Of a DNA stretch of 47,601 bases, positions 26,630-44,889 are shown in pieces. This stretch comes from an uncultured Bacteroidota bacterium. Lineage in GTDB: Bacteria; Bacteroidota; Bacteroidia; Flavobacteriales; Flavobacteriaceae. The position numbers were made by a program, and so were the translations under genes. The stretch is taken from positions 1 through 47,601 of the forward strand of contig CACJYD010000013.1 in NCBI GenBank assembly GCA_902597545.1, given 5' to 3'. The notes under the pieces were generated by a model that was given only the letters and a program-made list of their open reading frames with translations, made no database searches and had not been told where the DNA came from. Every line of letters starts with the position of its first letter. Within the stretch, counting starts at the first letter, position 1.

Positions 26630-27322
26630 TTACAATGATTTTCTCGTAGAAATTACATATGTAGTATATGTGAAAATAACAATTATGAATTCCCAATATA
26701 AAATGTAGTAAGGCCATTCACCCAGAATCAGTGGATTATTTACATTTGGTGGATATGCTAAATACATGTAGTTAGAATCTATCTGAAAGTTCAATGGCAT
26801 GACAAATGCAAGAACTATGTTTAAGTATAGTACAACTCTTAACCAAGAAAATTTTGTCAGTTCATAATTTAAGTATAAGTACATAAAAATTGGTAAGAAT
26901 ATAATACCGCCATGAGAAAAATGATAACTAAAATATTCAAAAAAAGAACCATCAAAATTATTTATTTGCGGTGTTAAAAATGCTTGAATTCCACCAATTA
27001 TTCCGGCATAAAATAAAAACTCAAACAACACTTTATTTCTTTTTGTGAAAAGAATAAAGCAAGCAATTAAATTTGAAATTCCACACAGGTGCAAAGGTAA
27101 ATTTTCAGACATATTCCAGTATCCATTGATTATATTACGTGAATGTTCCGTTATAGTAGAAATTATAAGAAGAACAGCAATGCCTTTGGCTAAATTTAAT
27201 CTTTGATTATAAGATGATATTCTTCCGATTAATAATAATGTAAGAATAACAACTAGTGAAACTAATGTATTTATAATCCATTCATTTGAAAAAAACTCAA
27301 TTACATAGTTTTCAGTTCCCAT
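26630..27322 (-). CDS. TIGR02206/YwaF-type integral membrane protein
   Basis: A 230-residue protein with about six or seven membrane helices. Family marks are LPLHLCGISNLIA (near 75–87), a conserved SYHFSHGGIIFLPIFM segment (near 131–146) and the loop SNYMYLAYPPNVNNPL (near 183–198). YwaF-type proteins have no assigned function. The start overlaps the GH2 stop by one base, so it is transcribed with the glycosidase and sulfatase. A role in moving or sensing the released sugar is possible, but only its position suggests it. Confidence 0.82.
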   Translation of the reverse strand: MGTENYVIEFFSNEWIINTLVSLVVILTLLLIGRISSYNQRLNLAKGIAVLLIISTITEHSRNIINGYWNMSENLPLHLCGISNLIACFILFTKRNKVLFEFLFYAGIIGGIQAFLTPQINNFDGSFFEYFSYHFSHGGIIFLPIFMYLYLNYELTKFSWLRVVLYLNIVLAFVMPLNFQIDSNYMYLAYPPNVNNPLILGEWPYYILYWEFIIVIFTYTTYVISTRKSL

Positions 27323-30291
27323 TATTTAAAATAATTAATCATGTTAAACAAGATAATCTCTGAGACTGGATCATAATTTAGGTTTTCTAACAACTTTAAT
27401 GTAGATAAAACCATTTTACCTTTACCATGCTTCACAATTGAAAGATCTGATCCTGACCATACTTCGCCAGAGCCAATATAATTTCTTTTTAGAATATTTC
27501 CATTAGGAATTCTATCAAATGCTATTGTCTGAACTATATTTTTCCCTTTAAAATTTCTTAAACTAATAGTTGGAGCAATATTTTCATAAATTCCACTCAT
27601 ATTCACGTTAACTGGAAGTTTATTAAAAAATGGATGCTTGGAATTTATATGTAAAATCCCATCCCAAAGTCCTTGGGATATATTTTTAATTGGTTTACTA
27701 GGTAAATAGTCAACTCCATCAGCTACAAATGTTAAGTTTGGTCCAATTCTTTTTCTAGTTTTCCCTGGTATTTTCAAGAAAATAACATTACCTCCTTTAA
27801 ATGTAAACTTGTTTATTTGATCCATTAATTTACTATAGTCCGTTAATGAGTCTTCATTGTTTTTCTCAACAATATTTCCATCTTTAGAGCTATAAAAATC
27901 TGTATCACTCTCATTTACTATAACTGTAGTGTTTAAATCAGTATTTTTACTAAAAATCTCATACTTTATCCCGTATTTATTAAAAAAATTAACTGTTCTT
28001 TTATCATCTTTTAATACAGCTACATTCAGGTTTTGATGATGCTTTGGCAAAGGAAAAATATTAAATTTTATGGATGTTTGATATTCAACTACATTACTTT
28101 TAGTTAATGTAACTTTTAATTCATACTCACTGGGCTCTAAGTCTTTTCCAAGATTTATTTTTCCAATGTCATTGATGCCATTTTTAATTTCATAACTATT
28201 ATTGGAATTATAAATTAATTCCTTTTTGTTTTTATTTAATTTATTAACTGATATTCTTACTTTATTATTTTCAGACTGTCTTTCGTTAATTATTAAGGTT
28301 GATATTTTAACAATTTCTCCTTTAAAATAATTTCTTTTATTGGTTCTTAAAACAGCTATTTTAGACAAATTTCCCTCTTTTGTTAGATCATAAGCAAGAC
28401 CTTTAGGATTTCTCCATAGATCTAGAAGCCCTGCACCAATTATCCAGTCACCAGCTGTTAAAGCATGCACGCAATAGCCAATAACATTATCGTTCGATCT
28501 TATTGCTTCAAGCATTCTTTTATTTGCAATTCCATGAATTTCTTGCTGTTTTTTATAAAAAGAACTAGCATTCTTAAACAGTTTAATTAAACCTGTTTCA
28601 ATTAACTTTTCTTTAATTTCTTTATTAAACCGTAAATGATATAAATAAGGATAAGTAATAGGGTTTCCTTTTTTTAGGAATTCAATTTCATTTTCCTCAA
28701 GATCAGGAAGACTTCCATATCCAATTTCAGATACATATGAAGGTATATTTGGTACAACATTTCTTCCAGGTGTTCTGGCATTAAGACCGAGTCTTTTGTT
28801 TTCTTCAGGTGTTTTTCCGATAGTAAGAAATCCATCAAACTTATTATTATTAATGTTAGGTCCAGGATAATTATGTATATCATTGAATTTGAAAGCTTTT
28901 GTACTGTATGGGAGATAAAGGTTGGCGCCCTCAGCCCATCCTCCTGACTCATCCAGTATTAGCCTTGTTGGATCGAGTTCTCTTGCTTTTAATGACATTG
29001 GTTTAAGCATGTTAGCTAGAACAGGTCTTCTTATTTCATTAAATAACTCCCATTGAACAATGGAGGGGTGATTTCTATCTCTTAAAATTGATTCAGTAAT
29101 TTCATTTTCAACTCTTTGTGGCAAATATGGTGTTTCTATGGGCATATCCATACATTCAATTGCCATACTTCCAACTGTAAGAACCCCAATTGAGTCTGCT
29201 AGGTGAAGCCACTCTTTTGGTGGTGGCTTTCTCCAAGGTCTAATCATATTAAATCCTGCATCTTTTGCCAAAAGAATTTCCTTTATCATCATTTCTTTTG
29301 AATCAGGGTATGATAGTTTTACAGGGTACAATCCTTCAAAAAAGGCTGCTTTTAAGTATAAAGGTTTATCATTGAGATAAAACTTATTGTTTTTAACAGT
29401 AAATTCTCTAAACCCAAAAGTTTCTTTGATTCTGTCAAGTTCAGTAATAATCGTATCCTTATTGGAAATATTGACCTTTTGTAATTTAATCTCAAACTCA
29501 TAAAGATTAGGGCTTTCTGGAGACCATATTTGGTGATTCTTAACAGTATTTTTAATTTTTTTTATGACTTTCAAATTTGTATTTTCTAAAGTAAATAGTT
29601 CTTCAAAACTTTGTTTTTTATTAATATCAAATATTAGTTTATAGAGTCCATCGCCAATACCATTATTTATCTCATTAATAATTTCAATATCACCATTTCT
29701 AAAGTTTCCAGTAATAAATACATCATTGATATGAGTCTGCCCAGTGTAAGAAAGAAATACATCCTGCCATATTCCACCAGTGTATGAACCTCTCCATTGC
29801 GGAGTTTCCATCTGACCAATTCCATCAATAATTTTGTCTTGAATTGTTATTGGACCCATTACCTTTACAATTAATACGTTTTGACTATCATAATTAATAA
29901 TGTGCTCAACATTAAAACTGAAAGGGCTGAAACCTCCCTCATGAAAACCTACAGAATTATTATTAAGAAATACTTCAGTTATGTAGTTTGAGGCATTAAA
30001 ATTGAGATGTATTTTTTTATCCTTATAATCATTATCTACTTTGAAACTAGTTCTGTAATAAACAACCCCTTCATAATCTTTTTTAAATCTCTCCCATACA
30101 CTTGGGACAGTAATTTTTTCAATTTTTCCGTTTGAGAATCCTTCATCTGTATTGTAAGCTTGTAATTTCCCAATATTATCATAATCATAGATTATTTCCC
30201 ATTCTCCATTCAAATAAGTGATGTCATCTCGAATTTGAGAGTAATTAATTATAAATAAAAAAATAGATACTATTGATAAAAGCTTTTTCAT
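27322..30291 (-). CDS. Secreted glycoside hydrolase family 2 protein (beta-galactosidase/beta-glucuronidase-like)
   Basis: A 989-residue enzyme with a signal peptide (end near YSQ, residue 19) and no lipobox. A GH2 sugar-binding domain covers about 25–190 (WQDVFLSYTG), an Ig-like domain about 195–295, and the TIM barrel about 300–600. Acid/base Glu419 lies in NHPSIVQWELFNEI, and the nucleophile is probably Glu522 in PSYVSEIGYG. The C-terminal 350 residues are additional beta domains. GH2 exo-enzymes release beta-linked galactose, mannose or glucuronic acid; with the sulfatase and sugar-acid genes nearby, beta-galactosidase action on a sulfated galactan is the most economical guess. ATGA overlap with the sulfatase stop shows co-translation. 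Confidence 0.92.
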   Translation of the reverse strand: MKKLLSIVSIFLFIINYSQIRDDITYLNGEWEIIYDYDNIGKLQAYNTDEGFSNGKIEKITVPSVWERFKKDYEGVVYYRTSFKVDNDYKDKKIHLNFNASNYITEVFLNNNSVGFHEGGFSPFSFNVEHIINYDSQNVLIVKVMGPITIQDKIIDGIGQMETPQWRGSYTGGIWQDVFLSYTGQTHINDVFITGNFRNGDIEIINEINNGIGDGLYKLIFDINKKQSFEELFTLENTNLKVIKKIKNTVKNHQIWSPESPNLYEFEIKLQKVNISNKDTIITELDRIKETFGFREFTVKNNKFYLNDKPLYLKAAFFEGLYPVKLSYPDSKEMMIKEILLAKDAGFNMIRPWRKPPPKEWLHLADSIGVLTVGSMAIECMDMPIETPYLPQRVENEITESILRDRNHPSIVQWELFNEIRRPVLANMLKPMSLKARELDPTRLILDESGGWAEGANLYLPYSTKAFKFNDIHNYPGPNINNNKFDGFLTIGKTPEENKRLGLNARTPGRNVVPNIPSYVSEIGYGSLPDLEENEIEFLKKGNPITYPYLYHLRFNKEIKEKLIETGLIKLFKNASSFYKKQQEIHGIANKRMLEAIRSNDNVIGYCVHALTAGDWIIGAGLLDLWRNPKGLAYDLTKEGNLSKIAVLRTNKRNYFKGEIVKISTLIINERQSENNKVRISVNKLNKNKKELIYNSNNSYEIKNGINDIGKINLGKDLEPSEYELKVTLTKSNVVEYQTSIKFNIFPLPKHHQNLNVAVLKDDKRTVNFFNKYGIKYEIFSKNTDLNTTVIVNESDTDFYSSKDGNIVEKNNEDSLTDYSKLMDQINKFTFKGGNVIFLKIPGKTRKRIGPNLTFVADGVDYLPSKPIKNISQGLWDGILHINSKHPFFNKLPVNVNMSGIYENIAPTISLRNFKGKNIVQTIAFDRIPNGNILKRNYIGSGEVWSGSDLSIVKHGKGKMVLSTLKLLENLNYDPVSEIILFNMINYFK

Positions 30292-31940
30292 TTATTTAAT
30301 TTGGAAAAACCTTGGGGAATCACAGGATGAGTCATTTTTTTTAATAATTCTCTCATTTCCTTAGTTTTTGGATGATTATCATTAAAAATTAAATTATTCC
30401 ACTCCTTTGGATCATTAGCATTATTATAAAGTTCCTCCTGTCCAGTGTTATATAAAATATACCTCCAATCTTTTGTTCTGATTGAATAATGATGATTCGA
30501 GGGTATTGTTTCATTTTCATCAGATGAATAAACAACTGTAAGTGCTGCTTCAGGTCCATCCCATTTATTTTTTTCTGGGTTTTTTAAAAAGGGTTTTAAA
30601 CTAAATCCATTAAGTGAACTTCCTTTATCATTTCTTTTAGTAATAAAATCCAACCCAGCTAGATCCAATAGGGTGGGATAGACATCGATCAAAGAGACTG
30701 GATGATTAACTTTTGTGTTTGGTTTTGATACTCCAGGCGCTCTAATGATTAATGGAACTCTTGTGCTTTCTTCCCATAAAGAGTTTTTATAAACATGTTC
30801 TTTTTCACCCATTGTCCACCCATGGTCACTTGCAATAATTACAATTGTATTTTCCTTAAGTTTAGTTTTATTCACGACATCCAATACTTGACCTATATTT
30901 TCATCTACAGCTGTAACACATGCCAAATATGCTTGCGTAAATCTCTTCAATCCTTCTTTATTATCATCATAAGAGGCAACTAAATTTTTATACATCTCGA
31001 TTGATCTAACTCTCCTGCCTTTTGTTTCAAATTGGTCAACTAAATGAAGGAAGGTATCATCCTTGTCATTTTCTAGAATATTTGCAAGTTGAATATCTTC
31101 AAGGGGATACATATCAAAATATTTCTGCGGGACGATTAAAGGGGTGTGAGGTCTTAAAAAACCAACAGCCATGAAAAAAGGATTCTCATCATCAGAATTA
31201 GCAAGCTCAAGAAGTCTTTTTTCGGCCCATTCAGCATTAATTTCATCAGGTGTCAAATCTCTATTATTATCATCTATATATTTGAAATCTCTACCTTGTC
31301 TTTGAGGTCCATATGCCCATCTAACTTGTTTCCCATCAACTTTAACACCCTCAAGGTTAATTAGGGGTCCATAGGATCCATCTATAGGACCACCTGCCAT
31401 GTTCCATCCATCTAATTCTTTTATAACTCTATATGGTTTGGGAACATCAGGATGAGCAATTCCTGGTTTTCCTTTTTTCCATTCACCAATATAAGCAATA
31501 GGGCTGTAGTCAGCTTCATGTTTAAACTCAGTCCAAATACTTTTTTCGTTTTGATGTAATAACTTTCCACTTCCTATGACGTTATAGTCATTTTCTTTAA
31601 ACTTTTCCATTATTGTCTTTGTGTTTTTTAATACTTCATTGTTTTTCCAATTGTATTGCCAAAGATGTGATGAAATGTGGGGATATACTCCTGTAAACAT
31701 GCTGGCTCTCGATGGCCCACACATTGGGTCATTTGAATAAGCATTTGTAAACGATAGGGCTGTTTCTGAAAATTTCTTGATGTTGGGCGTTAGTACTTGT
31801 GGATGCCCCATTAAGTCTTCATTATAGTCATTTAAATCATCAACCATTATTAATAAAATATTTGGTTTTTCAATTGATTGAGTATTACATCCTGAGAATA
31901 GAAAAAAGAGCAATATGGTGGTTAGAGTACTTCTTATCAT
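30288..31940 (-). CDS. Lipoprotein sulfatase (S1 family, iduronate-2-sulfatase-like)
   Basis: A 550-residue sulfatase with a lipobox ending at Cys18 (LLFFLFSGC), so probably anchored in the periplasm or at the outer membrane. VDDLND supplies metal-binding Asp33 and Asp34; C74-G-P-S-R is the CxPxR site whose Cys becomes formylglycine. Further sulfatase blocks are GSGKLLH, GFLRPHTPLIVPQKY and IIASDHGWTMGEKEH. The pattern resembles iduronate-2-sulfatase-like S1 enzymes, a group that in marine Bacteroidota also includes sulfated-galactan and ulvan enzymes. No formylglycine-generating enzyme lies in the window. First gene of the minus-strand unit, diverging from the beta-helix genes across 52 bp. 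Confidence 0.93.
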   Translation of the reverse strand: MIRSTLTTILLFFLFSGCNTQSIEKPNILLIMVDDLNDYNEDLMGHPQVLTPNIKKFSETALSFTNAYSNDPMCGPSRASMFTGVYPHISSHLWQYNWKNNEVLKNTKTIMEKFKENDYNVIGSGKLLHQNEKSIWTEFKHEADYSPIAYIGEWKKGKPGIAHPDVPKPYRVIKELDGWNMAGGPIDGSYGPLINLEGVKVDGKQVRWAYGPQRQGRDFKYIDDNNRDLTPDEINAEWAEKRLLELANSDDENPFFMAVGFLRPHTPLIVPQKYFDMYPLEDIQLANILENDKDDTFLHLVDQFETKGRRVRSIEMYKNLVASYDDNKEGLKRFTQAYLACVTAVDENIGQVLDVVNKTKLKENTIVIIASDHGWTMGEKEHVYKNSLWEESTRVPLIIRAPGVSKPNTKVNHPVSLIDVYPTLLDLAGLDFITKRNDKGSSLNGFSLKPFLKNPEKNKWDGPEAALTVVYSSDENETIPSNHHYSIRTKDWRYILYNTGQEELYNNANDPKEWNNLIFNDNHPKTKEMRELLKKMTHPVIPQGFSKLNK

Positions 31941-31992
31941 GATATTTTTTTTATATTTAATAAAATCACTTAAACATCATTATTACTAAGCT

Positions 31993-33768
31993 ATGAAAAA
32001 GAAAATTTTTTTACTAATTATATCAATTTTTGTTATCGCCTGTTCTTCAGACTCTGGAGGTGATTCTGGAGGCACAGATAATGGCGGTGGTAATAACAAT
32101 GGGGGAGGCAATAATAATGGAGGTGGAAATAATTCAGGAACTACAGATACTACAGATCCTAATGATTTTGATTCTACAACATCACCTGGAGATACTACTT
32201 ATTACATAAGTTATAATTCTGGAAATGATAACAATGATGGCAAAAGTGAAGATAAGCCGTTTAAAAATCTTGGTAAAGTAAATAGTATAACTTTTAAACC
32301 TGGAGATAAGTTAAAGTTTAAATCAGGTGAGACTTGGAAAGGATATTTTAAACTCAGAGGCTCCGGGTCAGTGGATAAACCGATTGAAATTGAAAGTTAT
32401 TCAAGTGGTAATAAGCCTAAAATTGATGGTAATGGTTTTCAAGCAGCTGTTTTTATTGAAAATCAAGAGTATGTTAATATTAGTGGTTTGGAGTTAACAA
32501 ATGAAGCATCACATAAAAATAGTAATGGGTCAGTTAAGTTGATGAATCAATCAAATCGTTCAGGCGAAGATGAAAGATTTGGGCTATTAGTTTTAAGACA
32601 TGGATCCTCAAACATAAATGGAATAAAACTAAATGATATTAAAATTTCTGAGATATATCCAACCCCTTCAAATTCAGATAACAATCATCAAGGTTATGCT
32701 GTAAGATTTGAATCACTTAATGATGATAATGTTTTAAATTATTATGATGGAATAGAGATTGACAATTTAGATATTTCTAATACTGGACACTATGGAATTC
32801 ATATTGTGAACAGAATGTCTGGCGCTCAAGCTGATTATTATCATAGAAATATTACTATTAAGAATAGCAAGTTTAATGATACTGGAGGCTCAGGAATAGT
32901 CTTAGCAAGATGTAAAAATGTTGTTGTTGAGAATTCTGAATTTAAGGGATCTGGATCTGGAAATGACAACAGAATGTGGAATAGAGGAAGTAGTTTATGG
33001 ACTTACACTTGTAATGATACAGTAATTCAGAATAATATCTTTGAAGATGTATATGGGCCGGCAGATTCATATGGAGCACATATTGATTGGGGATGTGAAA
33101 GAGTGGTAATTCAATACAACCTAAGTAAAAATAATTATGGTGGATTTGCTGAAATCCTAGGTGAAAATATTATGTGTGGATATAGGTATAATATCAGTAT
33201 TGCCGATGGGGGAAGAACAAATTCAAATATTGGAAAGACTTTTTGGGTTTCTGACTATGCAGGAAGTAATACAAGAAGAATTGGGTCTGAGGATAATTTC
33301 ATTTACAATAACACTGTTTTTATTCCAAGTCAAAATCCATCTAATAATAATGCTCCATTTGATCACTTAGAGATATTTATTAGACCAAATACAAAAGAGA
33401 CATATATATATAACAACCTAATTTATATAAGTGATAAAGCTAAATTGAAAATTGATACGAGAAATGATGGAACTATGAATGACTGGAAAAATAACTTATT
33501 TTTTGGAAATTTAGTAATTGATGGTGCATCAGATTATGAGCATAACGGAACAGAGTTGTTCACAAACCCAATGCTTGTTAATCCTGGTGGAACAACAGCA
33601 AACGATTATAAATTACAATCCACAAGCCCAGCTTTAGGAACAGGCTACATTATTAACGGAAGTGATGATGTTAAAAACTATATACAGAATAATGGCGGTA
33701 GAGATTACTTTGGAAATTCTGTTAGCTCCAATTCAAAACCTAATATTGGTGCATACAACGGAAATTAG
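31993..33768 (+). CDS. Right-handed parallel beta-helix lipoprotein 1, putative carbohydrate-active enzyme
   Basis: A 591-residue lipoprotein (lipobox ending at Cys17) with a Gly/Asn-rich tether at about 19–60 that would hold the domain off the membrane. From about 68 it is a classic beta-helix: short repeats of NI-x-I-x-(N/D)-(N/S)-x-F. The start YYISYNSGNDNNDGKSEDKPF resembles polysaccharide lyases and helical glycosidases, but I recognise no named family. The centre shares a long conserved block with the next gene: W-x-RGSxLWT, then GPADSYGAHID (355–365) and FAEILG (385–390). Asp358, Asp365, His363 and Glu387 are candidate active-site residues. Function is inferred from fold and context only. 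Confidence 0.85.
   Translation: MKKKIFLLIISIFVIACSSDSGGDSGGTDNGGGNNNGGGNNNGGGNNSGTTDTTDPNDFDSTTSPGDTTYYISYNSGNDNNDGKSEDKPFKNLGKVNSITFKPGDKLKFKSGETWKGYFKLRGSGSVDKPIEIESYSSGNKPKIDGNGFQAAVFIENQEYVNISGLELTNEASHKNSNGSVKLMNQSNRSGEDERFGLLVLRHGSSNINGIKLNDIKISEIYPTPSNSDNNHQGYAVRFESLNDDNVLNYYDGIEIDNLDISNTGHYGIHIVNRMSGAQADYYHRNITIKNSKFNDTGGSGIVLARCKNVVVENSEFKGSGSGNDNRMWNRGSSLWTYTCNDTVIQNNIFEDVYGPADSYGAHIDWGCERVVIQYNLSKNNYGGFAEILGENIMCGYRYNISIADGGRTNSNIGKTFWVSDYAGSNTRRIGSEDNFIYNNTVFIPSQNPSNNNAPFDHLEIFIRPNTKETYIYNNLIYISDKAKLKIDTRNDGTMNDWKNNLFFGNLVIDGASDYEHNGTELFTNPMLVNPGGTTANDYKLQSTSPALGTGYIINGSDDVKNYIQNNGGRDYFGNSVSSNSKPNIGAYNGN
32083..32136 (+). repeat. In-frame (GGGNNN)3 coding repeat
   Basis: Three imperfect 18-bp units encode GGGNNN, GGGNNN and GGGNNS (residues 31–48 of beta-helix lipoprotein 1). 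The DNA copies differ at several third positions, so this is a selected flexible linker rather than a recent slippage tract. Confidence 0.7.
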
Positions 33769-35322
33769 ATGTATAGGTCTCTAATTTTATGTATAGTAGT
33801 TACCTTTTTATCATGTAATCAGGTTCAGTATGGTGAAAAAAATGAAATAGGTCATTCCTACTATTTTAATTCTATTTCGGGAGATAATTCAAACCTTGGA
33901 ACCAAAGAAAAACCATTAAAAAGTCTAGATTATATTGAAAAAATTAGCCTAAAAGAAGGTGATAAAATTTTATTAGCCAATGGTTCAACTTTTACAAATA
34001 CAATCAATCTTATTGATAAAAATGGAGTTGAGGTTTCAAATTATATGACTGATAAAAATACTAAAATACCAATAATTAATTCAGAGGGTAAAATAGCTGC
34101 TGTTTTTGTTGAAAATTCATCAAATATAACAATCAATAATATTGAAATAACTGCAAATGGTGGAGGTCCAAATAAATCTTTTCATAATAAAATAAAAACC
34201 GACTTAAGAACTGGAATTTTATATCTAGTAACCGATAATGAAATTTATAATAACCTATATGTATCAGACCTAAAAATTCGAGATATTTTTTTTGAGAATC
34301 CTGGATATATTAGAAGTGAAAAAGAAGTTCGAACACCAAATGGAACTAAGAGTTATGGATGGGGTATAAGGGTTGTTAATCTTTCCGATGTGGGTAATCT
34401 TGTGAATGTTAAAATTAAAAACTCTTCATTTATTAACATATCCCATACTGCTATCCGTTTTAAAGGTATTAGAGAAAATCAATTCAATAATATTGAAATT
34501 CTTAATAATATTGTTTTGAGATCTGGTGGACCTGGAATGGTTTTTAACTCTACAAAAAACCTATATGCTAACGGAAATGACATAAATTATTCAGGGTCTT
34601 TTGATGATACTAGAAAATGGGGAAGGGGTAGTGGACTTTGGACTTGGGGAAGTTCATTTGCAGTAATATCAAACAATAAATTTCAAAATGCGAATGGACC
34701 TGCAGATTCAGCAGGATGTCATATAGATTTTAATTGTAATGATATTATAGTTGAAAATAATTTAAGTAAAAATAATGCAGGAGGTTTTATAGAGATTTTA
34801 GGAAATAATTATAATTGTGCTTATCGAAATAATGTTAGTATAAATGATGGTCACCGTGTAAAGGGAAAAAACGGTGCTTTCCAAGAAGGAAAAACTTTTT
34901 GGTTAAGTGGTTATATTGGTAGAGGAAAGGAAAGAAATGGTCCATTTAATTCTTATATATATGGGAATAAAGTGTACGTAGGAAAAGATATCATTCCAAA
35001 AATTGCTGTTGATAAAGCAGCTAGAGGAGTTTTTGTAGCTAATAATATTTTTTATTTTGAGAATGACCCAGTAATGGTTTTAGGAGATCAATACAAGCCA
35101 GATGTTGGGGGCGGTTCTCAAATCAAAAATGTTTTTTTTGAAAATAACATCTTTAAAAAAAATCATTGGCCTAAAGAAGTTTTAATTCAACCAATAAATA
35201 ACATATATCATCCTGGTGCAGTTAAAGTTGATGATATTATTGAGGGTTTAAATTTTTTTGAAAAAGAAATAGAAATAAATTACCTTGAAACAGATTCAAA
35301 AGGTCTATGGCAAGGCTTTTAA
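33769..35322 (+). CDS. Right-handed parallel beta-helix lipoprotein 2, paralogue of the upstream gene
   Basis: A 517-residue lipoprotein (leader ending at Cys16, VTFLSC) beginning directly after the stop of its paralogue. It lacks the Gly/Asn tether, starting its beta-helix near residue 30 (YYFNSISGDNSNLGTKEKPL). The shared central block is clear: W284-x-RGSGLWTW, GPADSAGCHID (310–320), NLSKNNAGGFIEILG (331–345) and GKTFWLSGYIG. Asp313, His318, Asp320 and Glu342 are conserved with the first protein. N- and C-terminal parts are quite different, so the two may act on different linkages of one polymer. The family is not one I can name. It is followed 4 bp later by the cycloisomerase gene. Confidence 0.85.
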   Translation: MYRSLILCIVVTFLSCNQVQYGEKNEIGHSYYFNSISGDNSNLGTKEKPLKSLDYIEKISLKEGDKILLANGSTFTNTINLIDKNGVEVSNYMTDKNTKIPIINSEGKIAAVFVENSSNITINNIEITANGGGPNKSFHNKIKTDLRTGILYLVTDNEIYNNLYVSDLKIRDIFFENPGYIRSEKEVRTPNGTKSYGWGIRVVNLSDVGNLVNVKIKNSSFINISHTAIRFKGIRENQFNNIEILNNIVLRSGGPGMVFNSTKNLYANGNDINYSGSFDDTRKWGRGSGLWTWGSSFAVISNNKFQNANGPADSAGCHIDFNCNDIIVENNLSKNNAGGFIEILGNNYNCAYRNNVSINDGHRVKGKNGAFQEGKTFWLSGYIGRGKERNGPFNSYIYGNKVYVGKDIIPKIAVDKAARGVFVANNIFYFENDPVMVLGDQYKPDVGGGSQIKNVFFENNIFKKNHWPKEVLIQPINNIYHPGAVKVDDIIEGLNFFEKEIEINYLETDSKGLWQGF

Positions 35323-35326
35323 GCTT

Positions 35327-36454
35327 ATGAAAATAGTAAAGATCATACCATATGTTTTAAATGAAAATTTAGAGAAAGAATTTTTCTTTTCACAGTGGGA
35401 GTATAGCAATCGAAAAATATGTATTGTCAAAGTTATATGTGATAATGGATTAGTTGGATGGGGTGAAGCATACGGACCAGCACCAGTTGTTAAAGAGAGT
35501 ATAAATTATATCAAACAAAATATAATTGGTATGAGTCCTCTCAAATCTGATGTTATTTGGTCAACATTATTTAGAAGAGTTCATGACTATGGACGATCTG
35601 GCGTATTTCTTTCAGCAATAAGTGCAATTGATGTTGCCTTATGGGATATAAAGGGAAAATATCACAATCAGCCAATTTCAACTCTTTTAGGAGGTTCACA
35701 CAGAGATCAAATTAGACCATATGCTACTGGCCTTTATTTTTCCAAATCAAAAACACTCACAGAAGAATTGTGCGAAGAAGCATTAGGATATGTAAAAGAT
35801 GGTTTTAAATCAATCAAGATGAAAGTTGGTCTAAACCTAAAAGATGATTTTAAAAATGTTAAAGAGGTCAGAAATGCAATTGGTTATGATATTGAATTAA
35901 TGATTGACGCAAATCATGCATATTCATATGATGAGGCTTTACAATTATCAAAAAAATTAGAAAGCTTTGATATTAAGTGGTTTGAAGAACCACTTTCCCC
36001 TGAATTTTATGATCAGTATTCTGATTTTAAAGCAAAATCATCAATTCCCGTCGCAGCAGGTGAGTGTGAATATCTTAGATATGGATTTCAAAAACTATTG
36101 GATAAAAATTGTATTGATTTTTTGCAAATGGATATATGCTCATGTGGAGGCTTAACTGAGGCAAAGCGGATAACAGCATTATCCTCTACAAAAGGTGTAA
36201 AGGTTATCCCTCATACCTGGGGCTCAGGAATTGCATTCTTTACAGCTATTAACTTTATATCTAATCTTGAACCAATCCCAGGAAGATTGTATCAAGAGGA
36301 TGCCTATATTGAGTATGACAGAACAGAAAATAAAATAAGAGAGAATATAATTAAAAATAATATTGTAATAAAAGATGGTTATATTGAAGTTAACACTAAA
36401 CCAGGTTTAGGAATTGATGTTGATGAAACCTATCTTAACAAAGTAAAAATCTAA
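35327..36454 (+). CDS. Enolase-superfamily sugar-acid cycloisomerase/dehydratase (anhydrogalactonate cycloisomerase candidate)
   Basis: A 375-residue MR/MLE enzyme from the ATG at 35327; an in-frame start at 35285 would lie inside the beta-helix gene. VGWGEAYGP (43–51) and AISAIDVALWDIKGK (97–111) are typical. Catalytic residues visible are Lys164 and Lys166 (SIKMKVG), metal ligands Asp194 (MIDANHAYS), Glu220 and Glu246 (AAGECEY), and base His296 (IPHTWGSGI). From memory its layout closely follows bacterial D-galactarolactone cycloisomerase, the same reaction type as 3,6-anhydrogalactonate cycloisomerases of carrageenan and agar pathways. Product would be 2-keto-3-deoxygalactonate, which suits the kinase and aldolase downstream. 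Galactonate, fuconate or rhamnonate dehydratase remain alternatives. Confidence 0.85.
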   Translation: MKIVKIIPYVLNENLEKEFFFSQWEYSNRKICIVKVICDNGLVGWGEAYGPAPVVKESINYIKQNIIGMSPLKSDVIWSTLFRRVHDYGRSGVFLSAISAIDVALWDIKGKYHNQPISTLLGGSHRDQIRPYATGLYFSKSKTLTEELCEEALGYVKDGFKSIKMKVGLNLKDDFKNVKEVRNAIGYDIELMIDANHAYSYDEALQLSKKLESFDIKWFEEPLSPEFYDQYSDFKAKSSIPVAAGECEYLRYGFQKLLDKNCIDFLQMDICSCGGLTEAKRITALSSTKGVKVIPHTWGSGIAFFTAINFISNLEPIPGRLYQEDAYIEYDRTENKIRENIIKNNIVIKDGYIEVNTKPGLGIDVDETYLNKVKI

Positions 36455-36456
36455 TT

Positions 36457-37890
36457 ATGGAATTTGGAAATCTTCAAATGTACATTGATGGTGATATGAA
36501 ATCATCAGTTGATAAACTCACAAAAGATATTTACAGCCCTTTGAATGGACAGAAAATTGCTTCTTTGGCTTGGGGTAACCAAAAAGATTCTCTCCTAGCC
36601 TTGGAATCTGCCTCAAAAGGATTTAAAGTCTGGTCGAAACTACCTTTGACAAAGAGGAAAGAGTGGATGTCTATCCTTAGAAAAAAAATACTGGAAAACG
36701 AAGTCTTACTAAGAAAAGCAATTTCATATGAAATGGGCAAACCATATTCAGCTACAGCTGAGGATATTGAATCCATAGCCAATAGTTTAGAATATTATGC
36801 TGATGTAATTGATGATTTTGTTAAAACCGAGAAGATAGCTTTAAACGATAAGACTCACAATCACAAACTAGTATCTAAACCAATTGGAGTAGTTGTGGCT
36901 TATTTAGCTTGGAACTTTCCCCTACTAAATGCTGGATTTAAAATTGGACCTGCTTTGGCCTCTGGATGTAGTCTTATACTAAAACCCTCAGAATTATCTC
37001 CAATATCTTTATATATCATAGGGAATCTCTTAAAAGAAATTAATTTTCCAGAAGGGGTAATTAATATTATATGTGGAGAGCCAACTGAAGTTGCTCAAAC
37101 TCTATCTAAAAGCACAATACCAAGTCTTATAACAATGATCGGTTCTACAGAAACAGCCAAAAAAGTTATTTCTGACTCCTCAACTTCAATTAAAAAATAC
37201 AGCATGGAATTAGGTGGAAATGCTCCGTTTATTGTTTTCGATGATGCTGATCTTGAAAATGCAATTAATATAGGTGCAGCTATAAAGTTTGGTAACTGTG
37301 GGCAAATCTGTGTTGCTGCTAATCGATTTTTTGTTCATGAAAAAGTATATGATAAGTTTTTAAATGGTTTGATTGAAAAAGCAAAAAATTTAAAAATCGG
37401 ATATTCTGAAGATTTAGATTTTGAAATCGGACCATTAATTTCTAAAAAATCGAGGGATAGAATAACTAATTTAATTAAAAATACTATTGATTCTGGTGGG
37501 AATTTAGAATATGGAGGAGGAATTCCTGAAATGAATGGTAATTGGTTTGAACCAACAGTCATCTCAGGAATTAATGAATCAATGTCTATTTTTCATGAAG
37601 AGATTTTTGGACCAGTGGCAAGTATAATTAAATTTAAATATGACGATGAGGTTTTAAATCAGGCTAATAAAACCCAATATGGACTTGCTTCATATTTATT
37701 TACTAAAGACAAAAAAAGAATTGATAAGTTTGTGGATGAGCTTGATTTTGGCGAAATTCATGTAAATGGGATTAAGTATGATATATATCTTCCTCATGGT
37801 GGAATAAAACAGAGCGGAATTGGACATGATTGCTCAGAATTGGCATTAGAGGACTACTTAATCAAAAAAAGAATCAGTATTGCTAAATAA
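36457..37890 (+). CDS. NAD(P)-dependent aldehyde dehydrogenase (candidate 3,6-anhydrogalactose dehydrogenase)
   Basis: A 477-residue ALDH. Catalytic residues are Asn153 (AWNFP), Glu251 (MELGGNAPFIVFDDADL) and Cys285 (FGNCGQIC); HEEIFGPVA near the C-terminus is also standard. The sequence type is the broad succinate-semialdehyde-like class. Anhydrogalactose cannot close to a pyranose and behaves as a free aldehyde, so its oxidation uses an ALDH, which explains an ALDH beside a sugar-acid cycloisomerase. The start is 2 bp after the cycloisomerase stop, and all five catabolic genes are tightly packed. Confidence 0.92.
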   Translation: MEFGNLQMYIDGDMKSSVDKLTKDIYSPLNGQKIASLAWGNQKDSLLALESASKGFKVWSKLPLTKRKEWMSILRKKILENEVLLRKAISYEMGKPYSATAEDIESIANSLEYYADVIDDFVKTEKIALNDKTHNHKLVSKPIGVVVAYLAWNFPLLNAGFKIGPALASGCSLILKPSELSPISLYIIGNLLKEINFPEGVINIICGEPTEVAQTLSKSTIPSLITMIGSTETAKKVISDSSTSIKKYSMELGGNAPFIVFDDADLENAINIGAAIKFGNCGQICVAANRFFVHEKVYDKFLNGLIEKAKNLKIGYSEDLDFEIGPLISKKSRDRITNLIKNTIDSGGNLEYGGGIPEMNGNWFEPTVISGINESMSIFHEEIFGPVASIIKFKYDDEVLNQANKTQYGLASYLFTKDKKRIDKFVDELDFGEIHVNGIKYDIYLPHGGIKQSGIGHDCSELALEDYLIKKRISIAK

Positions 37891-37896
37891 TTTATT

Positions 37897-38898
37897 ATGG
37901 AACTATTTTTACCTTTTTTACTGTTAATTTTTGCTAGCTTTTTTCAAGGAACCTTTGGATTAGGAATGAAGTATATGAATCCTATGTCTTGGGAATCTTG
38001 GTGGGTTGTGCATGTTTTGGTTGCAATGATTTTATTTCCAATGATATGGGCAATTGTAGCAATCCCAGATCTTTTTGAAATTATCTCAAATTCACCAAAT
38101 GATGCCATTTATTTAGCAATGTTATTTGGGTTCCTTTGGGGAATTGGTGGTATTATGTTTGGAGTTAGTGTTCCCTATATTGGATTATCATTAACAATGG
38201 GTATTGTGATGGGTTTAGCTGGTTCAGCTGGAAGTCTAATTCCTTTGTTTCAAATTGAAAATGCTACTTCTCAGCCCTCATTTCCTTATATAATTGCTGG
38301 TTTACTAATTTCGTTAATCGGTGTTGCTATTACTGCAAAAGCAGGAATTGAAAGAGATAAACTTTTAAGCAGTGATAATAAGTCAAGCAATATTGTAAAA
38401 GGAATTTTAATAGCAGTTACCTGTGGATTATTATCATCACTCTTAAATGTAGGATTTGCTAATGCTGCACCAATTGCTGAAAAGGCACAAGAATATGGTG
38501 TTATTGCCAGGAATTCAAGTTTAGCTGCATGGGTAGTTGTTCTTTTGGGTGCATTTGTGATGAATTTTGGTTATGCAATATTTTTATTAATAAAGAATAA
38601 TTCTTGGAATACATTTTCACTAAAAAATGCTAAGAATGCATATAAGTGGTCATTTATTGCAGGTTTCTGCTGGTTTGCTGCCCTCGGTGTTTATGGACAA
38701 GGAGCTGCATTACTTGGCGAAATAGGTCCAGTTATTGGATGGCCAATTTTATTAGGTTTATCACTTATTATAAGTAATTACTGGGCATATAGAGCAGGAG
38801 AATGGAAAAATGCAAGAAAACCATTCAATAAACTGCTTTTAGGTTTACTTGTACTTATTGTGTCTGCTGTTGTATTAGGGTTTGGCAACTCTGTATAA
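37897..38898 (+). CDS. RhaT-like sugar:proton symporter
   Basis: A 333-residue membrane protein with about ten helices. GLGMKYMNPMSWESWWVVHVL at the start, FGFLWGIGGIMFGVSVPYIG (about 72–91) and the end EWKNARKP match the L-rhamnose/proton symporter family in layout. It is the only obvious importer in the catabolic run and would bring a monosaccharide, not a long oligosaccharide, across the inner membrane. That fits complete periplasmic or surface breakdown of the polymer first. The substrate is inferred from neighbours; rhamnose itself is an alternative. Confidence 0.88.
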   Translation: MELFLPFLLLIFASFFQGTFGLGMKYMNPMSWESWWVVHVLVAMILFPMIWAIVAIPDLFEIISNSPNDAIYLAMLFGFLWGIGGIMFGVSVPYIGLSLTMGIVMGLAGSAGSLIPLFQIENATSQPSFPYIIAGLLISLIGVAITAKAGIERDKLLSSDNKSSNIVKGILIAVTCGLLSSLLNVGFANAAPIAEKAQEYGVIARNSSLAAWVVVLLGAFVMNFGYAIFLLIKNNSWNTFSLKNAKNAYKWSFIAGFCWFAALGVYGQGAALLGEIGPVIGWPILLGLSLIISNYWAYRAGEWKNARKPFNKLLLGLLVLIVSAVVLGFGNSV

Positions 38899-39888
38899 AT
38901 GACAAATATTCTAGGATATGGTGAATTGATGCTCAGACATACTCCTGTTGATAGTTATATAACAACTAATGGATCAAAGGAGTTTAAAACTAATTTTGGA
39001 GGATCAGAATCTAATTCATTATGTTTCTTAGCTAGTAAAGGACATAATTGCACATTTTTATCTGCCTTTCCTAAAAATGATCTTGGTTTAAAATCAATAA
39101 AGTTTCTTGAAAATCATAATGTAAAACCCAAAGTCATGTTTGATGATAATAGATTAGGATTATATTACACAATTCCAGGAAAGAATAATAAATTATCAAA
39201 AATTGTATATGATAGAAAAGATTCAAGTTTTTCTAAGTATCGAATATCGGAGGACTTTATCAATAAAATTTTAGAGGATATTTCATATTTAATTATTTCA
39301 GGAATAAGCCCTGCATTGTCAAAAATTTGTTATGATAATATTATGAAAATGGTAGATATTTCTAAAAAAAATGATATAAAAATTATCTATGACATTAATT
39401 ATAGAGAAAACCTATGGTCATTAGAAGATTGTAAAAAATTTAACCTTAAGATTCTAAAACATGTCGATTTTTTATTTACCAATGCAAATACATTATCAAA
39501 AGTATTTAATCATTTATTTAAAGTAAAAAATGACGAATTTTTCTTTCAAACAAAAGATGCTATTAATTTTATTAGTCAAAAATTTAAAATACCATATATA
39601 GGAATGACGGTCAGAGTAAATGATATGTTAGGTGGTGCACTCTTTAAAGATAAGAGTATTTATTTGAGTGAGCTTTACAAAGTAAATCAAATTGATAGAG
39701 TTGGTGCTGGTGATGTCTTTTTAGCTGCAAACATGAATTGTTTTTTTAATAATTATGATGCTCAAAATATTATTTCATACGCAACATCAGCTTTTGCTCT
39801 TTCTCACACTAAGTTTGGTGATGTTAATATCCTTAATGATGATGAAATTGAAGATTTTAAGATAAATTCGATTAAAAATGTTAATTGA
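38899..39888 (+). CDS. PfkB-family 2-keto-3-deoxy sugar-acid kinase
   Basis: A 329-residue ribokinase-fold kinase. The N-terminal ILGYGELMLRHTP and GGSESNSLCFLA give the sugar-binding part, IIYDINYRENLW (near 162–173) is typical of KDG kinases, and DRVGAGDVFLAAN places catalytic Asp272 in GAGD. It would phosphorylate 2-keto-3-deoxygluconate or -galactonate at position 6 with ATP. It begins directly after the permease stop, and its 3' end overlaps the aldolase gene by 11 bp. Confidence 0.88.
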   Translation: MTNILGYGELMLRHTPVDSYITTNGSKEFKTNFGGSESNSLCFLASKGHNCTFLSAFPKNDLGLKSIKFLENHNVKPKVMFDDNRLGLYYTIPGKNNKLSKIVYDRKDSSFSKYRISEDFINKILEDISYLIISGISPALSKICYDNIMKMVDISKKNDIKIIYDINYRENLWSLEDCKKFNLKILKHVDFLFTNANTLSKVFNHLFKVKNDEFFFQTKDAINFISQKFKIPYIGMTVRVNDMLGGALFKDKSIYLSELYKVNQIDRVGAGDVFLAANMNCFFNNYDAQNIISYATSAFALSHTKFGDVNILNDDEIEDFKINSIKNVN

Positions 39889-40486
39889 TAATAAAATAAT
39901 ATCTGTTTTAACCATTAAAGATTACAAGAAATCTTTAGATCTTGCAAAGTGCTTATATGACTCTGGTATTGTTAATTTAGATATTAGATTAAGAACACAA
40001 CAATCAAAAAAGGCTATAGAGCTAATCAAAAATTCTAAATTTAAATTTAATATTGGTATTGGTACAGTCTTATCTCTTGAGGATTTATATTTTGTTAAAT
40101 CATTAGGAATAAAATACGCATACTCACCAAATACAGATGTAGAGATTTTAAATAATGCGAATAAGTTAGATATTCAATTTATCCCAGGTATTTCAAATAT
40201 TGATAATGTAATTTCTGCTGCAAAATGCAATTGTAAATATTTAAAATATTATCCAGCTGAAAAATCAGGCGGTGTCTCTAATTTAGATTTAATTATAGCA
40301 AAAAGTACAATCAAAAATTTAAAATTCATAGCGATGGGTGGGATCACATCAATCAATATTAAGCCTTACTTAAAGCACAAAAATATAATTGGTATTGGTA
40401 CAAGTTGGATAGCAGAAGAAAGTTTAATAGAAAGTTCTAATTGGAAAGAAATTAGAAAAAGAGCATCCGTTCTTTTAGAATCATAA
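39878..40486 (+). CDS. KDPG/KDPGal-type class I aldolase
   Basis: A 202-residue aldolase of the Eda/DgoA family. The Schiff-base lysine is Lys123 in YLKYYPAEKSGG, IGTVLS (61–66) is the usual glycine-rich turn, and AMGGITSINI provides the phosphate site. The position of the catalytic Glu of E. coli Eda (LEVTLRT) is Asp35 here (LDIRLRT), an unusual conservative change. The product pair is pyruvate plus glyceraldehyde-3-phosphate, ending the pathway. Its stop lies within a 6-bp overlap with the opposing gene. Confidence 0.88.
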   Translation: MLIDNKIISVLTIKDYKKSLDLAKCLYDSGIVNLDIRLRTQQSKKAIELIKNSKFKFNIGIGTVLSLEDLYFVKSLGIKYAYSPNTDVEILNNANKLDIQFIPGISNIDNVISAAKCNCKYLKYYPAEKSGGVSNLDLIIAKSTIKNLKFIAMGGITSINIKPYLKHKNIIGIGTSWIAEESLIESSNWKEIRKRASVLLES

Positions 40487-41140
40487 GTTTAAAAACTCAA
40501 AAAACTCAACAAATAACATTTTTAACTCGTTATCATCACGGGGAGAAATTTTATTTTTTTTGTAAAAATTATTTATTTCTTTACTTTTTGCATTACTAAA
40601 CATTGAAATTAAAAAGTTTTTGCGTCTTTCTATATATGTAAAGCGATCATTATAATACAAAAAAACGGAATTATTTTTTCTGTATCTAGGATCAGGTTTT
40701 TCCTGAATACCTGGTTGATAGTCAGGAATATATGCTTCTAAAAAAGTATCTGCTAGCAAAGAAAAATCTGAATTTTCTTCAATAGACTCATAAAACTTAC
40801 CGTTTTTAGAAACAAAAACTCTATCATCAAAAGTTACTTTTAAGATTTTGTTAGGTAGTAGTTTTAAAGTTTTTTCCTTGCCATCAATGTCGAAGGTTTG
40901 ATCCAATAAATTATAATTAGTTTCAACTTCAATAGGTTCATCTGAGTCAATTAAAATCAATACAGCTTGTTTAGGCTTTTTATAAAAATATTTATTCCCT
41001 GTAAATGTCGTTGTTTTTGGATTGTATACCGAAGCAATTTCTCTCTGAACTAATTGGAAGTTTGACTCATACATGTCTGTAGAAACAAAATTAGTCTGAG
41101 AAAAAACTAAAATAGGTATAAATAAGAGGAGTAATCTCAT
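40481..41140 (-). CDS. Secreted protein of unknown function
   Basis: A 219-residue protein with a signal peptide (LLLLFIPILVFSQ, cleavage near 15). The mature part alternates short beta strands and charged loops, with a conserved-looking region TTFTGNKYFYKKPKQAVLIL and a helical, lysine-rich C-terminus. I recognise no family. It lies at the edge of the sugar cluster on the opposite strand and has its own promoter box, so it is probably not part of the pathway. Confidence 0.65.
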   Translation of the reverse strand: MRLLLLFIPILVFSQTNFVSTDMYESNFQLVQREIASVYNPKTTTFTGNKYFYKKPKQAVLILIDSDEPIEVETNYNLLDQTFDIDGKEKTLKLLPNKILKVTFDDRVFVSKNGKFYESIEENSDFSLLADTFLEAYIPDYQPGIQEKPDPRYRKNNSVFLYYNDRFTYIERRKNFLISMFSNAKSKEINNFYKKNKISPRDDNELKMLFVEFFEFLNL

Positions 41141-44118: not shown

Positions 44119-44889
44119 ATGAATATGTATTACTTAATAGAAATTCCATGGGAATACCCATTTCTAGTTTTGCTTGGTTTTGTGGTTTCTATAATAAATA
44201 CAATGGCTGGTGGAGCTTCTATTATAACATTGCCAATACTTATTTTTTTAGGATTACCATCAAATGTTGCTAATGGTACAAATAGAATTGGTCTAATGAT
44301 GACAGCTTTTTCTGCAAATATGGGTTTTAAAAGTAAAGGTATATCTACATACCCATTTAGTGCTTACACTGGAGCATTTGCTTTAATTGGATCTGTCATT
44401 GGTGCTCATATAGCAGTTGAAATTAATGATGAAATATTTAATAAAATTTTGTCAATAATAATGATTATTGTCATAACAATAATAATATTTAAACCACGCA
44501 TAGTCAACAAAAACCTATCTGTTAGGTTAACAGGAAAACACCTCAAAATTTCATGTCTTGTTTTTTTCTTTATTGGACTTTACGGGGGGTTTATTAATGC
44601 AGGAATAGGATTTATTATAATGTTATTTTTACATTTTTACAACAGGCTTAATCTGATTAGGGTCAATGCAACAAAAGTTGTAATAGTGCTTGTATATACT
44701 ATTGGGGCATTTTTAACTTTTTTCTTTAATGGTTTGGTTGATTTACCATATGGTTTATGTCTTGGTCTTGGAACATTAATAGGTGGTTGGAATGCAAGTC
44801 GATTTTCTGTAGAAAGGGGAGAAGGAGTTGTAAAAGTTTTTCTTGTCATTTCAGCTATAATTATAGCTGTAAAGCTTTGGTTTTTTTAA
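44119..44889 (+). CDS. TauE/SafE (DUF81) family membrane permease
   Basis: A 256-residue protein with about eight membrane helices in two halves. [20 protein letters not shown] (28–47) with NGTNRIG, and the repeat-half [20 protein letters not shown] (about 156–175) with NATKVV, are the paired signatures of the TauE/SafE family, which exports sulfite, sulfoacetate or other small organic anions. The substrate here is unknown. It stands alone, and its TAA shares a palindromic TTAA with the ribB stop. Confidence 0.9.

Follow-up and report, generated by a model that had tools for sequence, protein, structure and literature searches.

In the 47,601-nucleotide contig CACJYD010000013.1 of an uncultured Bacteroidota bacterium (Flavobacteriaceae; assembly GCA_902597545.1), which was analyzed at its full length and is here called the window, two adjacent open reading frames (ORFs), ORF1 and ORF2, encode paralogous right-handed β-helix proteins. 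Based on sequence comparison and predicted structures, we assign both to a distinct sister branch of glycoside hydrolase family 136 (GH136), in which the surroundings of the active site are changed. We propose that ORF1 and ORF2 are probably surface glycosidases that, together with a neighboring sulfatase and a GH2 enzyme, dismantle a sulfated galactan containing 3,6-anhydro-D-galactose (D-AHG), of the carrageenan or furcellaran type; we put the probability of this reading at roughly 0.5. It suggests a new use for the GH136 family, on carrageenan-like sulfated galactan, in which the fold and the catalytic pair are known and the substrate role is apparently new.

Relationship of ORF1 and ORF2 to GH136

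ORF1 and ORF2 lie head to tail with zero gap, and the proteins are 31% identical over 497 columns (BLASTP, 180 bits). A preliminary description of the window had already recognized two paralogous β-helix proteins; its coordinates are right and its motifs exact (ORF1/ORF2: WNRGSSLWT/WGRGSGLWT, GPADSYGAHID/GPADSAGCHID, and EILG), and the residue pairs that it singled out, D358/313, H363/318, D365/320 and E387/342, are equivalent in the ORF1/ORF2 alignment. The Pfam Beta_helix model matches ORF1 with 36.3 bits, above its cut-off of 25.9, and ORF2 with 23.2 bits, slightly under it. The AlphaFold2 models are strand-rich, with a mean predicted local distance difference test score of 91.8 for ORF2 and 85.9 for ORF1.

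Sequence searches of the PDB (phmmer) with ORF1 returned 7v6m (3.1e-21) and 6kqs (2.3e-17), followed by 5gqc, 7v6i and 24mr, all of them lacto-N-biosidases; next came the alginate lyase 6kfn (1.4e-4), the sole lyase, and then chance-level chains. ORF2 retrieved only 6kqs (4.3e-15) and 7v6m (3.2e-7); at E ≤ 0.01, the only matches of an ORF2-clade profile (13 sequences) were the five GH136 sequences that ORF1 had retrieved, with values between 6e-31 and 5e-21. In Foldseek searches, the top six PDB matches are all GH136 for both models (ORF2, 9.8e-13 to 2.0e-12; ORF1, 1.9e-20 to 2.1e-14). The two proteins had been described as possible carbohydrate-active enzymes that could not be assigned to a named lyase or glycoside hydrolase family; the matches in sequence and fold bear out the first part and overturn the second, as both proteins fall beside GH136. 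A strong match to a characterized family, named beforehand as evidence against a new family, is thus present at the level of the family, not of function.

Polysaccharide lyases with a PL6/PL9-like β-helix have the broad fold in common with ORF1 and ORF2, and PL6 comes directly after GH136 in the Foldseek ranking of either model (9.9e-7 for ORF2 and 4.5e-7 for ORF1). We rejected a lyase identity, the most remote of the alternatives considered here, since the lyases rank behind GH136 in both sequence and fold: PL6/PL9 are only second tier for both models, PL6 being weaker than the best GH136 match by about 6 (ORF2) and 13 (ORF1) orders of magnitude. The GH136 Asp pair is invariant, and no uronic-acid gene was recognized near ORF1 and ORF2.

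Catalytic pair and branch-specific residues

According to the available text on ErLnb136, D568 is the acid/base, D575 the nucleophile, and W548 stacks on galactose (PMC7335108); that on LnbX describes a retaining enzyme (PMC8106489). We took the ErLnb136 residues as 6kqs SEQRES 570, 577 and 550, respectively, with the offset of two deduced from the Asp pair. ORF2 D313 and D320 align with 6kqs SEQRES D570 and D577, and their ORF1 equivalents are D358 and D365. At the position of the galactose-stacking Trp, ORF2 has W293, present in 43/43 ORF2 rows of the family alignment, and ORF1 has another aromatic residue, Y338.

The family alignment and tree rest on a profile search of genome contigs with an ORF2 alignment, which yielded 237 pattern matches and 167 relatives, and from which 80 loci were kept; all fetched loci with GH136-like genes stem from ORF2 queries and cover at most about 10 kb on each side. 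The 77 aligned rows (76 different) combine part of the 136 GH136-like ORFs from these loci with ORF1 and ORF2 of the window and two fragments from the PDB; ORFs of up to 430 residues and twelve near-duplicate loci were omitted, as was roughly two thirds of the more distant ORF2 loci. Both catalytic Asp residues are kept in all 77 rows. R286, H318 and E342 (ORF2 numbering) occur in 68/68 rows of the ORF1/ORF2 branch and in 0/9 (8 different) of the lacto-N-biosidase branch, so that the sister branch reads DxxxxHxD where the lacto-N-biosidase branch reads DxxxxDxD (Asp in 9/9). The tree separates the two branches with a support of 100/99; its midpoint root serves the drawing only, and the columns of R286, H318 and E342 were included. 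These counts identify the Asp pair as family chemistry and the His and Glu as marks of the new branch. The active-site set of the preliminary description thus divides: D358/313 and D365/320 correspond to the GH136 acid/base and nucleophile, and His363/318 and Glu387/342 are branch marks. The spacings R286–D313 and D313–E342, 27 and 29 residues, would be compatible with successive turns of the β-helix.

Could ORF1 and ORF2 be genuine lacto-N-biosidases whose substrates are host or animal glycans? The characterized enzymes (ErLnb136, 6kqs; LnbX, 5gqc; TnX, 7v6m; BsaX, 7v6i) share with them the right-handed β-helix, two Asp residues seven apart and the aromatic platform of subsite −2. However, those enzymes cut lacto-N-biose from milk or mucin glycans and need a helical GH136I subunit or domain, whereas ORF1 and ORF2 carry the altered motif and the additional Arg and Glu, have no recognized helical partner, and are flanked by a sulfatase and D-AHG genes. 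As the three branch marks differ throughout the 68 sister-branch rows, and no hexosamine gene was recognized among the scanned locus genes, we regard this identity as highly improbable. Members of the DxxxxDxD lacto-N-biosidase branch do occur in Bacteroidota (L034:5387-6844, L037:6119-7690 and L040:13038-14567), and those of L037 and L040 directly adjoin an ORF2 relative.

The anhydrogalactose locus and its distribution

The genes downstream of ORF2 (Table 1) match, as judged by their sequences, the D-AHG route of carrageenan catabolism, which supports the earlier linkage of ORF1 and ORF2 to a sugar-acid pathway. The cycloisomerase is closest to Zobellia DauB (5olc, 3.9e-134), ahead of the galactarolactone enzyme AtGCI (4ggb, 1.7e-86) and far ahead of the L-AHG cycloisomerase (4.8e-41). 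All seven of the DauB/AtGCI residues given in the available text of PMC5698469 (K166, D194, E220, E246, H296, D87 and W298) are found at matching spacing. For the aldehyde dehydrogenase, Pseudoalteromonas DauA (6pnu, 2.6e-138) is the sole match at the 1e-90 limit set. The start of DauB is likelier the ATG at 35327 than the listed TTG at 35285, which overlaps ORF2. An L-AHG (agar) pathway was rejected, the cycloisomerase being far closer to the D-AHG enzyme, and the further L-AHG enzymes were not recognized among the locus genes. Since the downstream genes match the D-AHG route, a carrageenan- or furcellaran-type galactan is the best guess for the substrate, and ulvan or an L-anhydrogalactose agar is less likely.

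Table 1. ORF1, ORF2 and neighboring features of the window
Feature	Position	Strand	Basis	Predicted residues
ORF1, GH136-related β-helix putative lipoprotein, 591 aa	31993..33768	+	sequence, fold	acid/base D358, nucleophile D365; subfamily R331, H363, E387; aromatic Y338
ORF2, GH136-related β-helix putative lipoprotein, 517 aa	33769..35322	+	sequence, fold	acid/base D313, nucleophile D320; subfamily R286, H318, E342; aromatic W293
GH2 glycosidase; β-galactosidase and β-glucuronidase models score alike	27322..30291	-	domain search	
S1-type sulfatase, divergent	30288..31940	-	domain search	CGPSR formylglycine-type motif at residue 74
Intergenic stretch of 52 bp separating the start of ORF1 from that of the divergent sulfatase	31941..31992	.	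ORF coordinates	
DauB-like 3,6-anhydro-D-galactonate cycloisomerase	35327..36454	+	PDB 5olc, E 3.9e-134	
DauA-like 3,6-anhydro-D-galactose dehydrogenase (ALDH)	36457..37890	+	PDB 6pnu, E 2.6e-138	
RhaT-type sugar/H+ symporter	37897..38898	+	Pfam, NCBIfam	
PfkB-type 2-keto-3-deoxy sugar-acid kinase (DauC role)	38899..39888	+	Pfam, NCBIfam	
KDPG/KHG-type aldolase (DauD role)	39878..40486	+	Pfam, NCBIfam	

The 52 bp that separate ORF1 from the divergent sulfatase presumably serve both genes as a promoter region. The kinase and aldolase belong to the right superfamilies, yet are only 21–37% identical to their counterparts beside DauB in three other genomes (G238, G184 and G050), and may therefore be analogous recruits. 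Elsewhere, an HpcH/HpaI-type aldolase gene lies beside DauA (L166:4837-5604, by domain scan and also beside RhaT; L172:506-1270, by eye) and possibly replaces the KDPG-type aldolase in the last step of the D-AHG route.

Of the 80 kept loci, 20 are of the window locus type, one from each of 20 uncultured Bacteroidota genomes. Record titles name the carriers as uncultured Bacteroidetes, Cryomorphaceae or Flavobacteriaceae and include isolates and metagenome-assembled genomes; we take the AG/AH isolates to be single cells of open-ocean origin. Scored by identity thresholds of our own, with several stretches ending early, ORF1 adjoins ORF2 in 20/20 loci, which also all contain the sulfatase and DauA; DauB and RhaT are present in 18/20 each, the kinase and aldolase in 17/20, and GH2 in 12/20. 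In L069, the kinase and aldolase are missing though the stretch continues. Two unlike loci, L094 and L098, also have ORF2 beside DauA, RhaT and DauB. Within the 20 loci, lipobox-like signals were counted in 16/20 ORF1 and 16/19 ORF2 sequences (one truncated ORF2 omitted), using a loose pattern of our own that makes the counts weak evidence; both proteins are probably surface-exposed. Two relatives of the window locus are mosaic: over window positions 27322-40486, the sulfatase, GH2, ORF1, ORF2, DauB, DauA and RhaT of L053 are 94–99% identical, its kinase 76% and its aldolase 68%, and in L058 ORF2 is 71% and the flanking genes are 95–97% identical, which suggests recombination or exchange within the locus.

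Among 299 genomes of the same bacterial family, 17 match ORF2, 25 carry DauB (E ≤ 1e-90) and 7 have both (Fisher p 1.4e-4; p 0.014 excluding the three genomes with the window locus); neither these statistics nor those for GH127 below take account of phylogeny. With ORF1 as the query, there are 30 carriers, 25 DauB genomes and 8 with both (p 0.0013); the 13 added carriers have mostly short N-terminal matches, and the one added to the overlap, G001, has an 83-residue match. At E ≤ 1e-20 the numbers are 19, 25 and 7 (p 3e-4). Identities of at least 65% to ORF1 occur only in G000, G149 and G004, all with the window locus type; the next best are 47% over a short stretch and 37% over a long one.

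GH127 (E < 1e-80), the family that usually releases anhydrogalactose (DagA), is present in 17/18 of the DauB genomes that lack an ORF2 match, against 2/7 of those that have one (p 0.002); when the genomes are divided by all ORF1 matches instead, the fractions are 16/17 and 3/8 (p 0.006). The ten ORF2-matching genomes without DauB include one with a strong GH127 (G134), two with a weaker one and seven with none. Of 23 carrier genomes, two have GH127, with strong matches in the 5.5-Mb genome of L094 and a weak partial match in one other; among the 21 searched genomes with the window locus type, 20 gave no GH127 match and the remaining one has a weak partial match (L061 and L067 were treated as G004 and G149 and searched once). 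In G000, which is 85% complete, there were no GH127 or GH129 matches. GH129 gave 0/23 in a search of the carriers that had no positive control, and in a second search matched 2/35 genomes, one above the cut-off. The genome G246 has two Dau sets, one near GH127 on contig C4 and the other on C6; the latter contig also bears the five GH136-like genes of this genome, the closest of which is some 40 kb away from the Dau set.

Proposed function, alternatives and known systems

From the computed homology, catalytic pair, aromatic platform, pathway and conserved locus, we infer the mode of catalysis, the surface location, the substrate and the bond cleaved. A lacto-N-biosidase binds a 1,3-linked disaccharide in subsites −2 and −1 and cuts the β bond that follows it; carrageenan has the same topology, AHG-α-1,3-Gal-β-1,4. 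The retaining mechanism of GH136 is probable, with D358 (ORF1) or D313 (ORF2) as acid/base and D365 or D320 as nucleophile. ORF2, at least, would hold a 1,3-linked disaccharide in subsites −2/−1, its W293 lying beneath the −2 sugar, and cut the β bond of the −1 sugar; in the most likely chemistry, the product would be a neocarrabiose-like AHG-α-1,3-Gal unit. With both Asp residues and the aromatic residue of subsite −2 kept, a retaining enzyme that releases neocarrabiose represents the smallest change from known GH136 enzymes, and we favor it for ORF2. ORF1 may act likewise on units with another sulfation pattern, or liberate D-AHG directly. Freed D-AHG would be imported by the RhaT-type symporter and catabolized by DauA, DauB, the kinase and the aldolase in turn.

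Several observations weigh against this proposal. At the level of the proteins, the GH136 superpositions are loose (template modeling scores of 0.44–0.65 and root-mean-square deviations of 6.6–9.4 Å for both models); the NCBIfam LnbX model matches ORF1 at 6.2e-11, in an N-terminal stretch only and far under its cut-off, and ORF2 has no NCBIfam match. The GH136I-type helical partner that known GH136 enzymes need was not recognized in the locus; the strands of the ORF2 model start near residue 29. We considered a 219-residue ORF (40481-41140) as an LnbY-like partner and provisionally set it aside: it has no Pfam match, looks unlike such a partner by eye, and is convergent and not adjacent to ORF1 and ORF2. 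Neither the sulfatase nor the GH2 enzyme points to one substrate by its PDB matches. At the level of the genomes, 10/17 ORF2-matching family genomes lack DauB, and 58/60 of the other ORF2 loci lack DauA and DauB in the stretch covered. GH16, considered as a possible carrageenase, is found in 20/23 carriers, so that another depolymerase is possible; the single GH16 of the window genome resembles a laminarinase by eye. The genome G050 has DauB and neither a GH136-like match nor a convincing GH127. Finally, a D-AHG polysaccharide is not an obvious food in open water.

It is possible that ORF1 and ORF2 themselves release the monosaccharide. One or both would then be exo-α-1,3-(3,6-anhydro)-D-galactosidases that replace GH127/GH129 (DagA/DagB) and free D-AHG directly, with GH2 removing galactose, the main alternative, which we hold tentatively. 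The pathway requires a D-AHG release step, and ORF1 or ORF2 might provide it because there are genomes in which no α-anhydrogalactosidase was found; the near lack of GH127 matches in window-type genomes, the GH127 contrast among DauB genomes and the split Dau sets of G246 argue in the same direction. GH110, which reportedly acts on α-1,3 bonds of λ-carrageenan, is also among the β-helix Foldseek matches of the ORF2 model. However, known GH136 enzymes cleave β-D linkages, opposite in anomeric configuration to α-D-AHG; ORF2 often occurs in loci that carry no Dau genes; and some ORF2-matching genomes without DauB do have GH127. The GH127 contrast itself is confounded by the incompleteness of metagenome-assembled genomes, as it loses its significance when only genomes of 90% completeness or more are compared (17/18 and 2/3, p 0.27), a result that also counts against our proposal.

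In G050, the GH127 match (2.2e-5) is a 677-residue ORF that looks like another family by eye and has no BLAST match to a GH127 protein, and it was set aside. Some D-AHG loci or their surroundings encode a GH78-like protein next to a GH2 relative (L170:1-1644 and L173:13056-14501, which overlap and are from G050, and L039:2980-5574 from G246). Given the lack of a convincing GH127 and of a GH136-like match in G050, the GH78-like gene is a candidate for anhydrogalactose release there.

A more general sulfated β-galactan, for example an algal β-1,3- or mixed galactan, with the Dau genes serving a minor or accessory part, is a less probable substrate, although the other 60 ORF2 loci speak for it: 54 hold sulfatase-like ORFs, 17 GH2-like ORFs and only 2 DauA/DauB. 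A GH43 like the exo-β-1,3-galactanases occurs in 16 loci and adjoins ORF2 in 11, which is a further point against our proposal. Neighbors of ORF2 elsewhere comprise GH16, GH43 of the exo-β-1,3-galactanase kind, GH116, GH29, GH95 and GH78-like genes. As most of the other ORF2 loci lack Dau genes and the neighbors vary, the substrate range of ORF2 may exceed D-AHG polymers. On the other hand, the Dau genes are constant in the 20 window-type loci (DauA in all), and ORF1 at identities of at least 60% is confined to this locus type (3/299 family genomes with the ORF1 query). The GH43 gene (L103:11655-12791 and its protein cluster, 16 loci) recurs in sulfatase loci of Algoriphagus, Belliella and others, which hints at a sulfated β-1,3-galactan substrate. 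A 378-residue GH43-like neighbor of ORF2, tested as a GH117 (agar) partner, proved to be a relative of exo-β-1,3-galactanases.

The proposal that ORF1 and ORF2 act on a D-AHG galactan can be compared with described systems, in each case within the available text of the report. The carrageenan cluster of Zobellia galactanivorans, ZGAL_3145-3159, comprises DagA (GH127), DagB (GH129-like), DauA-D, a sugar/H+ symporter and sulfatases (PMC5698469). The window locus resembles it in the DauA and DauB functions and, as far as the superfamilies go, those of DauC and DauD, in the DMT-type sugar/H+ symporter and the S1 sulfatase type, the Zobellia GH2 β-galactosidase being encoded elsewhere (PMC5698469). 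The window locus, in contrast, has two GH136-like genes instead of GH127/GH129, a single sulfatase and no recognized SusC/SusD, and unlike Zobellia the carriers of this locus type have genomes of 0.9–1.9 Mb. The Pseudoalteromonas PS47 carrageenan cluster (GH16, GH167, S1 sulfatases and DauA) likewise combines the D-AHG pathway with an absence of GH127/GH129, and its authors state that the anhydrogalactosidase remains to be uncovered; a GH136-like gene is not mentioned there (PMC6923384). A Winogradskyella polysaccharide utilization locus, likened to the window locus by annotation only, contains GH136 and sulfatases, and its substrate was not identifiable according to its authors (PMC9723794).

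GH136 and carrageenan meet in the accessible literature in a list of enriched families from Flammeovirga, and the term GH136 is absent from the available text of two plankton papers (PMC9122927 and PMC10877868). Our searches of open-licence papers turned up no GH136-type enzyme reported to act on a galactan. The characterized GH136 enzymes in the literature surveyed are gut-bacterial lacto-N-biosidases. The GH136 fold may, we suggest with some reserve, have been recruited a second time, from milk- or mucin-type glycans to a D-AHG sulfated galactan, as a further solution beside GH127/GH129. ORF1 and ORF2 are candidates for the step left unassigned in some carrageenan degraders (PMC6923384), and the sister branch, tied to the D-AHG pathway and to sulfatases, offers a testable substrate for marine loci with GH136 and sulfatases that have been called enigmatic (PMC9723794). 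If the proposal is correct, a locus in open-water Flavobacteria far from seaweed, a habitat that we partly presume, would point to a carrageenan-like galactan of unrecognized planktonic origin; if the pelagic origin hinted at by the record titles holds, the question arises which planktonic organisms produce D-anhydrogalactose polymers. A few kilobases downstream of the locus, the window also encodes a member of the TauE/SafE sulfite-exporter family (44119-44889).

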